DNA from: a virus | IMG/VR virus record: IMGVR_UViG_3300035695_000011 | Span: 1-40,086 of that record | Length of the DNA stretch: 40,086 bases | Strand: one strand, 5' to 3' | Shown: positions 18,125 through 36,821 of the stretch, piece by piece | How positions within the stretch are numbered: position 1 is the first letter of the stretch | How the letters are laid out: each line of letters begins with the position of its first letter | Notes under the pieces: model-generated | Databases searched by the model: none | What the model saw: only the letters and a program-made list of their open reading frames with translations | Told to the model about the DNA's origin: nothing | Made by a program: the position numbers and the translations under genes

Positions 18125-18331
18125 ATGGGCATCAAGGAAGACGACTACAATAGATGCTGGCTAATAATCGAGGACGTGGGCAACGTTCCCGTTTCCTATT
18201 GGAATGCGATGCCTCTTCCGGATCACATCAAACTAGCATTAGAAACCATCTCTAAATATGCCTGGAGAGATGTCTCGGCTCAGCAAGCTTTCTGCGATGC
18301 CCATCAGCATTTCGGCGAGATCGATAATTAG
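18125..18331 (+). CDS. small hypothetical protein ahead of the tRNA
   Basis: A 68 aa protein starting MGIKEDDYNRCWLIIEDVG, with GGAG (18111-18114) upstream. An upstream in-frame TTG (18056) would add 23 residues, but it has no ribosome-binding site and overlaps the hairpin. No family is recognised. The final base of its stop codon is the first base of the tRNA, so the two are produced from one transcript. Confidence 0.55.
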   Translation: MGIKEDDYNRCWLIIEDVGNVPVSYWNAMPLPDHIKLALETISKYAWRDVSAQQAFCDAHQHFGEIDN

Positions 18332-18402
18332 GCCCTGTGGTGTAATGGTTAGCACACTTCACTTTCTATGAGAGAGCGTCGGTTCGAATCCGGCCAGGGT
18401 CA
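18331..18402 (+). tRNA. tRNA, probably Glu (UUC)
   Basis: A cloverleaf is readable: acceptor GGCCCTG pairs with CAGGGTC (one G-U); the D arm has GTGT/GCAC and an eight-base loop with GG; the T arm has GTCGG/CCGGC around TTCGAAT; discriminator is A and no CCA is encoded. With standard spacing the anticodon is TTC (18364-18366). T11-A24, T13-G22 and a four-base variable region are features of bacterial tRNA-Glu. The anticodon stem is weak (one mismatch at 27-43, one G-U), base 37 is U where a purine is normal, and a shifted loop would read TCT (Arg). Confidence 0.75.
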
Positions 18403-18405
18403 AAA

Positions 18406-19230
18406 ATGGTATTGAATGGCTTGGATTTATTTAGCGGAATCGGAGGACTTAGTCTCGCACTCAGTGAATGGGTCCGACCAATCGCCTATTGCGAAATCGA
18501 CTCCTACTGTCAAGGAGTGCTCCTGTCTAGACAGTCCGTGGGACATATTTCATCCGCTCCTATCTGGGACGATATACGGACGTTCCCTGACATATTTCAA
18601 CCCGGATTCATTGATATCATCTTCGGCGGATTCCCATGCCAGGACATCAGCGTTGCAGGCAGTGGACAGGGCTTGGCAGGAGAGCGAAGCGGGCTTTTTT
18701 TTGAGATCATTCGACTTGTCCGAGAAATACAGCCACCCTTTATTTTCCTGGAAAACGTCCCGGCAATCAGAACCCGAGGACTTGATACCGTGCTCAAAGA
18801 ATTTGCCAAAGCACGGTATGATTGTCGATGGACGATGCTATCAGCTGCGGATGTCGGAGCTCCCCATAAAAGAGAACGATGGTTTTTGTTGGCAAGACGA
18901 AGACCAGATTCAGCGGAAATTCATTCCCACCCCGATGGCGAACAATCTCCCCAGATCAAAGAAAGCGAAAGAAGTTCACTCGTCCGGTCCGAGATTGGTG
19001 GATTACGTGAGAATGTGGGCCACACCAACAGCAAGGGATTGGAGGGTGGGAAAGAGCAACAATGCGAGGAACTCAAGGCCATTGAGCGAAGTGATTGGTG
19101 GTCAGCTGAGCCCGATGTGGGTAGAGTGGTTAATGGGCTTCCCCATAGGGTGGACAGAATTAGAGGCCTGGGCAATTCCGTGGTTCCTAAGCAGGCGAAA
19201 GAAGCGTTTAAAAGATTAATGGGACTGTAA
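18406..19230 (+). CDS. dcm: DNA C5-cytosine methyltransferase
   Basis: This 274 aa enzyme transfers a methyl group from S-adenosylmethionine to carbon 5 of cytosine. All core motifs are present: I LDLFSGIGG (6-14), IV GGFPCQDIS with catalytic Cys78, VI ENV (116-118), VIII KRERWF (155-160), and IX/X RGLGNSVVP (253-261) with a short C-terminal helix. The target-recognition region between VIII and IX is short, as in compact phage orphan enzymes. No restriction gene is near, so self-protection is likely. The only visible ribosome-binding site (AGGG, 18396-18399) lies in the acceptor arm of the tRNA. A second frame is open through nearly the whole gene (18416-19219). Confidence 0.93.
   Translation: MVLNGLDLFSGIGGLSLALSEWVRPIAYCEIDSYCQGVLLSRQSVGHISSAPIWDDIRTFPDIFQPGFIDIIFGGFPCQDISVAGSGQGLAGERSGLFFEIIRLVREIQPPFIFLENVPAIRTRGLDTVLKEFAKARYDCRWTMLSAADVGAPHKRERWFLLARRRPDSAEIHSHPDGEQSPQIKESERSSLVRSEIGGLRENVGHTNSKGLEGGKEQQCEELKAIERSDWWSAEPDVGRVVNGLPHRVDRIRGLGNSVVPKQAKEAFKRLMGL
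18416..19219 (+). CDS. overprinted protein within dcm, +1 frame
   Basis: A 267-codon frame runs inside the methyltransferase gene without a stop and starts at an ATG directly after a TGA in that frame. Its C-terminal half carries motifs I recall from stand-alone phage proteins found with Dcm: HARTSALQ, SWKTSR, PKHGMIVDGRCYQLR, WATPTARDW, NSRPLSEVIGGQLSP and WVEWLMGFPIGWTELE. The same bases give EPDVGRVVNGLPHRVDRI in the methyltransferase frame, so both products look conserved. Function is unknown. No own ribosome-binding site is evident, so expression would need reinitiation, leaky scanning from 18406, or an internal start. Confidence 0.6.
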   Translation: MAWIYLAESEDLVSHSVNGSDQSPIAKSTPTVKECSCLDSPWDIFHPLLSGTIYGRSLTYFNPDSLISSSADSHARTSALQAVDRAWQESEAGFFLRSFDLSEKYSHPLFSWKTSRQSEPEDLIPCSKNLPKHGMIVDGRCYQLRMSELPIKENDGFCWQDEDQIQRKFIPTPMANNLPRSKKAKEVHSSGPRLVDYVRMWATPTARDWRVGKSNNARNSRPLSEVIGGQLSPMWVEWLMGFPIGWTELEAWAIPWFLSRRKKRLKD

Positions 19231-25309: not shown

Positions 25310-26911
25310 ATGTCAGATGTTTTCAATGTCGGTGCAGACCCCCTCTCATACAGTGGTATAGCCCAGAATCCCCCTCCAATACTATCTTCACGAGACCCTA
25401 CTTCAGCAGACATCGGCTATCCCGATGGTCAACAATGGACCAATACCTCAGCCGGCACAAACTGGTTTCTAGGTAGTGTGTTAGCTGGTGCCGCAACATG
25501 GAATCTAGCTGGAGCTGGCTCGTCAGGTGCTGTAATCAGCTTTACAGGCGATGCAGGCGGCGCAGAAGTGCCTGACGGGGGAGGTAACTTCAATCTACTC
25601 GGAACTCTTAACCAGATAACGACTACGGGTTCAGCTAATACAGAAACCTTATCTCTCTCGGCAACTCTTGTAGCTCCAGGTTCAATCACTTCCACAACAT
25701 CCATTGCGGCAGGCACGACGCTTACATCAGTAGGAGCTACTACGCTAGCCACGACTGGAGCAAGCGTTAACACCTTTGGTAATGCAACAGGAGCGACCTC
25801 TGTTACATTGACATCCGGTTCTGGGGGCATCACACTGACAGCTACAAACGCAGCCCTTACAGAGAACTCTGGTACAGGAACGCTAGGCATTAGTACAGAC
25901 GCAGCAGCGACAACGGTCAACGTTGCCACAGGAGCTGGGGCAAAGACTGCTACATTTGGTTCCACCAACACAACCTCCACTACAGCGATTCACTCCGGCA
26001 GCGGCGGTATCACAGCCGCTACTAGCACAAACGGCCCTGTAACAATAAGCAGCGGTACGGGAACCATCGGCATCAGCGCAGACGCAACAGCCACAACAGT
26101 CAATGTAGCAACAGGAGCCGGAGCCAAAACAGCGACCTTCGGCTCTACAGATACAACATCGACCACGGCCATTCATTCTGGAAGTACAGGTATCACCGTA
26201 GCGACTTCTACTAATGGTCCTGTAACTGTAACAAGTGGGACAGGAACCGTTGCCATTAGCGCCGATGCCGCAGCCACAACAGTCAACGTGGCAACCGGTG
26301 CAGGCGCGAAAACGGCCACGTTTGGTTCCACCAATTCGACCTCTACAACAGCCATCCACTCGGGATCGAGCGGTATTACGGTTGCTACCTCAACTAATGG
26401 TCCAATCGCTGTCACAAGCGGCACAGGAGCTCTTAGCATCTCCGATGACGCAGCAGCTACTACCGTTAAACTAGGCACAGGCGCAGCGGCCAAAACGGTG
26501 ACTGTTGGATCTACAACCACAACCTCGTCCACGACAATCAATGGTGGTTCTAATGGCATTGTTATCGTCCCTACAGCTGGGAATATCTCAATTACTCCTG
26601 GGACTGGCTCTGTAGCCTCACCAACAGCCTCTATCACGATCAATGATCGTTTTGGCGTCGCAACCTTTACGGGATTCACAACAGCATCGGCGGGTACACA
26701 AGATTTCACGATCTCGAATACTACAGTGACTACTACGTCAGCGGTAGATGTGAGAGTCTCCAATCTAAACGCCTCTACAAATAACGCTCAAATGGGTGTC
26801 CTTGGTGTGACACAAGCCGCCAACTCCCTAATCATTCACACAAAGAACAACGGTGCAGGAGCTTTAGGTGCAGGCGACAACGTATTAATCACTTTCTGGA
26901 TCTATAGCTAG
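25310..26911 (+). CDS. tail fibre with repetitive beta shaft
   Basis: A 533 aa protein. The N-terminal 120 residues (RDPTSADIGYPDGQQWTNT, then GAATWNLAG and VPDGGGNFNLLG) form an anchor shared with the 28984-30666 fibre. The centre is four near-identical 61-residue repeats (TTVNVATGAGAKTATFGSTN, AIHSGS-GIT-ATSTNGP, SGTGT-ISADA), a beta-helical shaft type. The end (about 430-533) is a distinct non-repetitive head that probably touches the receptor. AGGAG precedes the ATG; the frame is open upstream to 25277, but that is leader. Confidence 0.8.
   Translation: MSDVFNVGADPLSYSGIAQNPPPILSSRDPTSADIGYPDGQQWTNTSAGTNWFLGSVLAGAATWNLAGAGSSGAVISFTGDAGGAEVPDGGGNFNLLGTLNQITTTGSANTETLSLSATLVAPGSITSTTSIAAGTTLTSVGATTLATTGASVNTFGNATGATSVTLTSGSGGITLTATNAALTENSGTGTLGISTDAAATTVNVATGAGAKTATFGSTNTTSTTAIHSGSGGITAATSTNGPVTISSGTGTIGISADATATTVNVATGAGAKTATFGSTDTTSTTAIHSGSTGITVATSTNGPVTVTSGTGTVAISADAAATTVNVATGAGAKTATFGSTNSTSTTAIHSGSSGITVATSTNGPIAVTSGTGALSISDDAAATTVKLGTGAAAKTVTVGSTTTTSSTTINGGSNGIVIVPTAGNISITPGTGSVASPTASITINDRFGVATFTGFTTASAGTQDFTISNTTVTTTSAVDVRVSNLNASTNNAQMGVLGVTQAANSLIIHTKNNGAGALGAGDNVLITFWIYS
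25910..26600 (+). repeat. 183-bp tandem coding repeat, four units
   Basis: Equivalent points (the Thr-Thr-Val codons) occur at 25910, 26093, 26276 and 26459, an exact 183-base period (61 codons). The first three units are very similar; the fourth has diverged (TTVKLGTGAAAKTVTVGST). An older, more diverged unit lies upstream. Such arrays can gain or lose units by recombination and so change fibre length. Confidence 0.85.
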
Positions 26912-35405: not shown

Positions 35406-35855
35406 AAAAAAGCGCGGGACCACCCCGCGCCACGAAAGAACCTGCCCTTAATGTAACCTTTAACTTTTGACTTGTCAAGAATCTAGAGGCAGGCTTAACG
35501 TGGTCCACAAGCGGCTGCAACCGCACTGTAGACCTCTGCACAAAGAAAAGGCGTGCTTCCCATCCCTGGTGTCACGCCTTACGGAACCCTCGCCCGTATG
35601 CCCGAATCATACCATAGCGATTCGTCCAATCTCAATCTAAAAAACAATCTTTATTCCCCCGAGTCGCCCCCGACAAAAAGGGTGACAGCAAAACAAAATA
35701 AGAATAGGCTAGAAAAAGAAAAGCCCGGGCTGCGAACCCAGGCCTTTTGTGATTCTGGCGCCAACCGCCAAAAATCGGATGTCATTCCACACCCGATTAT
35801 AGCAGATGCGGCGCCAGAGTCAAGTTTAAGAAAAAACTTGATACAGGATTCTCGC
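35406..35855. other. 450-base hairpin-rich region before the initiator gene
   Basis: No convincing gene lies here. Inverted repeats follow one another: GCGCGGG/CCCGCGC (35412-35430), GCGG/CCGC (35511-35524), AAGGCGTG/CACGCCTT (35548-35580), CGAATC/GATTCG (35603-35624), an imperfect A4...T4 hairpin (35719-35748), a 12-base-pair outer stem 35751-35762/35810-35821 enclosing AATCGG/CCGATT (35773-35798), and TCAAGTTT/AAACTTGA (35820-35841). The first three are preceded by A-runs, so some could end leftward transcripts. It may be a leader, an origin element, or a structured RNA. The initiator frame is open back to 35553 without a good start. Confidence 0.6.
35719..35748. terminator. possible bidirectional terminator
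   Basis: AAAAG-CC-GGG pairs with CCC-GG-CTTTT around loop CTGCGAA (one bulge, one mismatch). The symmetrical A-run and T-run let it act on transcripts of either strand. It would attenuate transcription from the regulator operon into the initiator. Confidence 0.4.
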
Positions 35856-36821
35856 ATGGCTCTCTCTCAAGGTTACATCAGAATACCTAGATCGCTCGTG
35901 GACGATCCTTATTATCTAGCGGCTAGCGTCTTTCACAAGCAGGTCCTTCTTACAATCATTAAGCTTGCCTGCTGGCGTCCCTATGAATTTAACGACAACG
36001 GAAATACGATCAATTTGGAGCCGGGGCAGCTATGTATCAGTATGCGAGAACTCACGAAAAAATGTGGTAAGGGAATAACGAAAAACCACGTTGAAGGTGC
36101 GTTAAAATATTTTGAAAAGCAAAGAGAAGTGAGACAAGAAGTCAGACAAACAATCAGACACGAAGTCAGACACAAAAAAACCATCATAACCATCACAGAT
36201 CAAGACGCTTCCGCGCTATTTAAAAACGCCGATCAGACAGAAAGTCAGACAAACTTTCAGACAGAAAGTCAGACACAAACGAATATCCTAAAAAATCCTA
36301 AAGAACCTAAAGACTGTTTAAAAGAAGCGAATGCGAAAAGGGAAAAGGGAATCGCGTCATCCCTTTCGCTTTCGCCTCTTTTTTTTGAATCGGATGAGGA
36401 AAAATCAAAAGAGTTCGAAGACCTCTGGGATTCGGTAGGTTTTCGTGGAATCCAGCAGCATCAGGTGGCTGGAGGCATCGCGAAGATGGATGTTTTCACA
36501 TGGCTCAAGCAGCACTCCGTTGCCCAAATCGAGATAGCGATTTTGGAGGCGATGAAAAAACCGAGAAGGAATTACCCGAGCTACATTCAAAAAATGCTCA
36601 GCGCGGGTATCGCAAGGGAACGCGAAAACGAAGAAGTCAATCGACAGTGGTGCGAAGAGACCAATATTGAACAATATGGTTTCTTTGAAGTTGCGGCTAA
36701 ATACCTTAAGGATAATTTCCTGAAAAAAGAATACTATTTTCATCTCCCTCCCGAAATGTTTGCCCGGATAATTTATGCGTCGATTCAGGAGTGGAAGGAA
36801 GTTCAAGAAAAAGGCCATTAA
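35856..36821 (+). CDS. replication initiator with winged-helix domain
   Basis: A 321 aa protein. Residues 1-95 (IRIPRSLVDDPYYLAASVFH, LLTIIKLACWRPYEF, ISMRELTKKCGKGITKNHVE) form a winged-helix domain like those of phage O-type and DnaD-type initiators, which bind origin repeats and recruit the helicase. Residues 92-145 are a polar linker encoded by two DNA iteron arrays (VRQ-EVRQ-TIRH and QTES-QTNF). The C-terminal half is helical and likely contacts the helicase. Placement of iterons inside the gene mirrors lambda O. AGGA precedes the start codon. Confidence 0.7.
   Translation: MALSQGYIRIPRSLVDDPYYLAASVFHKQVLLTIIKLACWRPYEFNDNGNTINLEPGQLCISMRELTKKCGKGITKNHVEGALKYFEKQREVRQEVRQTIRHEVRHKKTIITITDQDASALFKNADQTESQTNFQTESQTQTNILKNPKEPKDCLKEANAKREKGIASSLSLSPLFFESDEEKSKEFEDLWDSVGFRGIQQHQVAGGIAKMDVFTWLKQHSVAQIEIAILEAMKKPRRNYPSYIQKMLSAGIARERENEEVNRQWCEETNIEQYGFFEVAAKYLKDNFLKKEYYFHLPPEMFARIIYASIQEWKEVQEKGH
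36130..36275 (+). repeat. origin iterons: two arrays of four 12-bp repeats
   Basis: TCAGACA (first copy TGAGACA) begins at 36130, 36142, 36154 and 36166, then TCAGACA again at 36233, 36245, 36257 and 36269. The period is exactly 12 bases in both arrays; flanks often extend to AAGTCAGACA. Array 1 reads VRQ-type codons and array 2 reads CAG-ACA (Gln-Thr) codons, because the frame is shifted by one base between arrays. AT-rich sequence (ATCCTAAAAAATCCTAAAG and on, 36285-36325) follows and could melt. Function as a replication origin is inferred from the lambda O arrangement. Confidence 0.75.

Follow-up and report, generated by a model that had tools for sequence, protein, structure and literature searches.

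Embedded origins and the initiator of the window

A replication origin inside an initiator gene is of a known kind, with lambda O, SPP1 gene 38, and pSK41 rep as examples. In lambda and the Stx phages, the iterons lie in the middle of the O gene, and an AT-rich tract adjoins them (PMC7466680). The annotated lambda iterons fall in codon phases 0, 2, 2, and 1; thus, keeping iterons across frames is not new. In SPP1, gp38 binds oriL inside gene 38 (PMC6316719). The N-terminal domain of pSK41 Rep binds four boxes in the center of rep, and the linker encoded there is dispensable in trans (PMC5703833). ORF20 of 80alpha is not complementable in trans, which suggests an embedded origin (PMC5499656); the 80alpha record marks a putative origin in its initiator gene, and no 11-bp repeat pattern was found in ORF20. 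For TP-J34, too, the record annotates direct repeats within the initiator gene.

The DNA analyzed here, called the window, is the whole of a complete virus record from IMG/VR (40,086 bases). It belongs to a tailed phage, in which genes for terminase, portal, RecT, a RecE-like exonuclease, and a DNA helicase were recognized, and the RecT and RecE-like genes adjoin the initiator gene. No DnaB-type helicase or DnaC-type loader was recognized among the genes scanned, some small ones of which had no identification. In a profile search, residues 5-181 of the initiator matched PHROG_2514, "DnaD-like helicase loader" (E 7.2e-12), and on this match the initiator is a member of the phage DnaD-like initiator family PHROG_2514. 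The sequence-only reading had called the system lambda-type. This description is apt for the working principle but not for membership, because the protein scored 17.3 bits against Pfam Phage_rep_O, below the gathering cut-off of 28.7, which places it outside the lambda O family, and PHROG_2514 matches instead.

An AlphaFold2 model built on an alignment with 24 relatives showed good confidence at residues ~11-90, moderate confidence to residue 115, and pLDDT <50 at residues 126-178. The predicted winged helix contains a recognition helix at residues 76-93 and wing strands at residues 99-105 and 108-114. The C-terminal part folded alone gave a low-confidence model. The best structural neighbors of the initiator model include the plasmid initiators 4pql, 4pt7, 4pta, and 5kbj with Z of 7.0-7.5, tied with CodY and CRP, and the likeness to plasmid initiators is suggestive only. 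Foldseek returned no significant match, and the initiator sequence, compared with the PDB in view of RepA_N, had no match there. The PHROG_2514 family profile matched DnaD structures weakly (8ojj, E 0.005).

The window locus resembles lambda O and ori-lambda in that both the iterons and the AT-rich tract lie mid-gene in the initiator gene, with all three codon phases used in lambda. In contrast to the window, lambda has only one array, in which iterons of 18 bp follow each other at 20-24 bp, besides the Pfam difference given above. By published description, SPP1 also has direct repeats in the initiator's own gene that are bound by the initiator, with an AT-rich unwinding element adjoining (PMC6316719), but it also possesses another origin, oriR, and encodes a loader and a helicase of its own. 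Comparable in plan is the RepA_N protein pSK41 Rep, which has a winged-helix N-terminal domain that binds boxes in the middle of rep, an origin encoding the linker, and a DnaD-like fold (PMC5703833). However, pSK41 is a plasmid, a sequence match to its Rep was not detected, and the model Z of ~7 was not above that of unrelated entries.

Iteron arrays and the adjoining AT-rich DNA

Two arrays of four direct repeats each are located in the initiator gene (Table 1). The step within each array is exactly 12 bp, and the distance from the last start of array 1 (36166) to the first start of array 2 (36233) is 67 bp. The arrays had been described earlier as eight TCAGACA words in two 12-bp arrays of four. 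The positions and the period were reproduced, but the eight words are not identical: seven are exact and one, at 36130, is the one-mismatch form TGAGACA. The iteron core is near-invariant, with 55/56 positions kept across the eight copies, and the 5-bp spacers vary; copies 5 and 7 are identical 12-mers. Elsewhere in the 40 kb, TCAGACA occurs as two single copies, which is not above the chance expectation.

Table 1. Coordinates of the initiator gene, its repeats, and neighboring predicted elements in the window
Feature	Position	Strand	Description
Initiator gene	35856..36821	+	321 aa; ATG at 35856; PHROG_2514 and AlphaFold2 model
Initiator domains	winged helix, residues ~11-115; disordered linker, 126-178; then helical C-terminal part		Predicted with AlphaFold2
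Array 1	36130..36172	+	Four 12-bp iterons: TGAGACA at 36130, TCAGACA at 36142, 36154, 36166
Spacer between arrays	36173..36232	+	Encodes second wing strand IITIT and linker start
Array 2	36233..36275	+	Four 12-bp iterons: TCAGACA at 36233, 36245, 36257, 36269
Probable DNA unwinding element	36276..36330	+	AT-rich; directly after array 2
Possible short antisense RNA unit	35712..35823	-	Upstream of initiator; predicted by consensus scan and folding
Second promoter-plus-terminator pair	35411-35478	-	Same gap between upstream gene and initiator; consensus scan

Relative to the ATG, array 1 stands in codon phase 1 and encodes the peptide VRQE VRQT IRHE VRHK, whereas array 2 stands in codon phase 2 and encodes DQTE SQTN FQTE SQTQ. 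The frame therefore differs between the two arrays of one gene and gives unrelated peptides, as had been claimed. According to the model, array 1 encodes residues ~92-106, at the end of the recognition helix and in the first wing strand, and array 2 encodes residues ~127-140, at the beginning of the predicted disordered linker. When codons were resampled from phage usage with the protein fixed (3,000 trials), the largest cluster of a single 7-mer was 4, in comparison with the 7 observed. Permuting the initiator gene's own synonymous codons gave the same outcome. Among 29 window genes tested, the initiator gene alone departed from its own synonymous-codon shuffle. These results showed that the tandem direct repeats in the initiator gene exceed what the coding sequence explains. 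Because the same DNA word is read in two frames and the codon nulls never reached the observed clustering, selection is attributed to the DNA rather than to the peptide, and the earlier proposal that the word itself is selected is supported by the synonymous-codon controls.

An AT-rich stretch had also been proposed at 36285-36325, and it is real; close to the array, stability is lowest in the 50 bp at 36277-36327, which rank at the 0.18th percentile of the window. The candidate unwinding element holds three copies of the 10-bp repeat ATCCTAAAGA at 36285-36313. An adjacent AT-rich unwinding element is expected of an in-gene iteron origin, and the window has such a stretch, which is predicted to melt. 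Across 30 members of the family, the DNA that directly follows the array was at the mean 3rd percentile of gene stability, in comparison with 29% for random placement, and none of 20,000 random draws reached this value. The GC skew of the window showed no clear switch and was uninformative on the origin. In addition, the ~16 codons after the array in the family genes (from ~36280 in the window) carry A in the second position at 68%, in comparison with 40% elsewhere, and on the other strand these A-rich positions give TnnT runs. The runs resemble the DnaD recognition element with TnnT motifs in oriC of B. subtilis (PMC10201434). We set aside a reading of these codons as a DnaD recognition element, since polar linkers use such codons anyway.

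Relatives of the initiator gene

Relatives were reached through an alignment query, phage records, and the DNA word itself. Viral-contig scans with the initiator alone or with the exonuclease found zero relatives. A scan of viral contigs for TCAGACA repeated every 11 bp gave two contigs, L206 and L213, apparently of one phage. The L213 initiator matches PHROG_2514 (E 9.6e-17) and is 34% identical to the window initiator over the N-terminal 137 residues. Identities between the two phages were 41% for terminase, 31% for portal, 36% for RecT, 38% for the upstream regulator, and 40% for the downstream gene; on these comparisons, L213 and the window phage are related and syntenic. In L213, the wing-coding DNA carries TCAGACA twice at a 12-bp step (codon phases 1 and 1), and the linker-coding DNA carries it five times at steps of 12, 11, 11, and 11 bp (codon phases 2, 2, 1, 0, and 2). 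The mixed 11/12-bp spacing leads to the use of all three frames. The last wing copy and the first linker copy are 67 bp apart, as in the window. Thus, the word, its places, and the gap are kept between the two phages, and the frames and residues change. Since L213 was found through the word, its having TCAGACA is not independent evidence; its homology and synteny, the placement of copies in the wing, and the gap do count as such.

A family set of 45 non-redundant genes was collected by protein similarity alone, besides the window gene and the initiator gene of contig L004. In 31 of these 45 relatives, at least four clustered copies of one 7-mer were found (p <= 0.01, synonymous shuffling). With the usual period of 11 bp, nearly all of these clusters pass through two or three frames. 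In about one-third of the family, clustered repeats are weak or absent. The in-gene iteron architecture is therefore common in the family but not universal. The sequence-only reading had proposed that the repeats should persist in relatives while linker residues vary, and this was borne out by L213 and ~30 family members, which keep word arrays across frames in the same linker. The PHROG_2514 and PHROG_186 initiators, for example those of Staphylococcus phages TEM123 and PVL, Bacillus phage Palmer, and Listeria phage vB_LmoS_188, belong to the same family and have the same gene plan: the iterons lie inside the gene, in the wing-coding and linker-coding parts, and DNA of low stability comes next. 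Most of these relatives differ from the window in period (11 bp rather than 12 bp) and in the number of wing copies (one or two rather than four), and the window word is not theirs.

The word varies between phages of one host group and travels with the initiator gene. TEM123 has six copies of AACAAAT at exact 11-bp steps, and the PVL word is AACATCA; GAACAGC occurs in a Pseudomonas phage, GGCAAGC in a Vibrio phage, and TGTCCAA in a Cronobacter phage, and CTAACAA, CTAACAG, and others were found besides. Many relatives have one or two word copies at the wing place that matches array 1, and several members have no wing copy. A linker word fits its own wing better than the wings of other phages (15 word classes; 1 of 20,000 permutations), which shows covariation of wing and linker. 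In members with a wing copy, the wing-to-linker distance is mostly 67-68, 78-79, or 90-91 bp, and these classes may partly reflect the conserved strand that the intervening DNA encodes. The wing-plus-linker layout, with four wing copies in the window, seems to be undescribed; in the open-access literature, we found no description of wing-coding iterons or of wing-linker covariation.

Other loci with the word TCAGACA were also recorded. Most contigs with 12-bp TCAGACA arrays were unrelated, the arrays lying at intergenic sites, in low-complexity proteins, or in small other genes. In L001 and L004, the initiator is mainly of another PHROG, and the 12-bp array reads TCAGACAACGTA on the opposite strand; the shared word was taken as a coincidence. 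The L004 initiator (1618-2400) best matches PHROG_23776 and has six perfect 12-bp repeats of TGATACGTTGTC in one frame in its linker. The L214 initiator (1229-1942) best matches PHROG_270 and has TCAGACA at 11-bp steps in all three frames in the linker, so that it shares the word with the window despite a different initiator type.

Function of the arrays and alternative explanations

The best explanation of the arrays is that they are iterons bound by the product of the gene in which they lie and that, together with the AT-rich stretch, they very probably constitute a theta replication origin embedded in that gene. We infer initiator binding to the iterons, melting of 36276-36330, and a start of replication at this site. 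The iterons would be occupied along the DNA by several winged-helix domains, and the strain of binding would open the AT-rich stretch. The C-terminal part would then recruit the host replicative helicase, either directly or via a host loader. Since the DNA of the origin is coding DNA as well, array 2 would be placed in the disordered linker and array 1 in the wing; the linker would tolerate array 2, as the sequence there would hardly matter. One DNA stretch would be held to two jobs, coding and origin function. A more tentative proposal, which we consider rather unlikely, is a bipartite family origin, in which iterons lie in wing-coding DNA, a change of word would rewrite wing and origin together, and a unit of ~150 bp containing both specificity and site could be swapped between phages. 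The wing-linker covariation makes such a joint change of initiator and origin specificity testable. A word repeated at 11-12 bp, at a fixed place and in any frame, could also serve as a finder, from the sequence only, of the origin and its probable recognition word in a large phage group.

Alternatively, the repeats could be operators, used by the initiator or by another regulator to control expression of the gene, and not an origin. The initiator is a predicted winged-helix DNA binder, which makes autoregulation plausible; several promoter-like sites lie upstream of its gene, and binding inside the gene could act as a roadblock. However, the arrays lie 270-420 bp inside the gene, and an exact copy of the word is absent near the gene start. 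The low-stability element directly downstream recurs family-wide, and related or analogous genes have experimentally supported origins at the same position. We therefore consider operators in place of an origin improbable, and the operator and origin functions are compatible, not exclusive.

A second alternative is that the peptide is selected, as a repetitive linker of VRQ/IRH and QTES, or that the repeats arose by neutral tandem duplication through replication slippage. Local duplication probably contributed, as the identical 12-mers of copies 5 and 7 indicate, and repetitive peptides raise the codon-shuffle null slightly. However, one 7-mer is kept in two frames with unrelated peptides, resampling with the protein fixed never gave more than four clustered copies, the cores are conserved while the spacers vary, and the relatives with an 11-bp period use all three frames. 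The frame and codon tests already speak against peptide selection or slippage as the sole cause, which is very unlikely. The least probable alternative is that the arrays are sites for another factor, such as a host initiator, a nucleoid protein, or a packaging or recombination signal; the RecT and RecE-like genes next door are in its favor and the initiator is only the presumed binder, but phages that share a host group have different words, each accompanying its initiator gene, and the wing-coding copy changes with the linker word, as expected for a binder encoded there.

Besides the embedded origin, a possible antisense unit upstream of the initiator gene was predicted (Table 1). On the minus strand, it has a strong promoter-like site at 35823-35796 with an extended -10 (TTGACT-16-TATAAT) and a terminator with a 13-bp stem at 35747-35719. 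The predicted RNA of ~75 nt, at 35789-35712, would be antisense to the initiator leader. The whole contig has two promoter-terminator pairs, both in the gap between the upstream gene and the initiator, in a scan that missed lambda oop and is thus not decisive. A similar unit lies upstream of the L213 initiator, at position 1614 on its + strand. The predicted RNA is comparable to the lambda OOP RNA, which runs leftward from pO and overlaps cII (PMC5869508), and to pSK41 RNAI (PMC5703833). The unit is a possible adjunct and would not be essential to the origin reading.

The initiator leader at 35750-35822 (+) contains a 13-nt inverted repeat, TGATTCTGGCGCC and GGCGCCAGAGTCA, one arm of which is covered by the predicted antisense RNA. 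The leader folds much better than its shuffles (z -4.4). A search of Rfam gave sub-threshold matches only. Elsewhere in the window, a 183-bp tandem repeat (25896-26428; 2.9 copies, 71% match) lies within a long tail-protein-like ORF. In the region 18331-19230, a tRNA-Arg (TCT) lies directly upstream of a C5-cytosine methyltransferase gene, and a long overlapping ORF of 267 aa occupies 18416-19219 in another frame.
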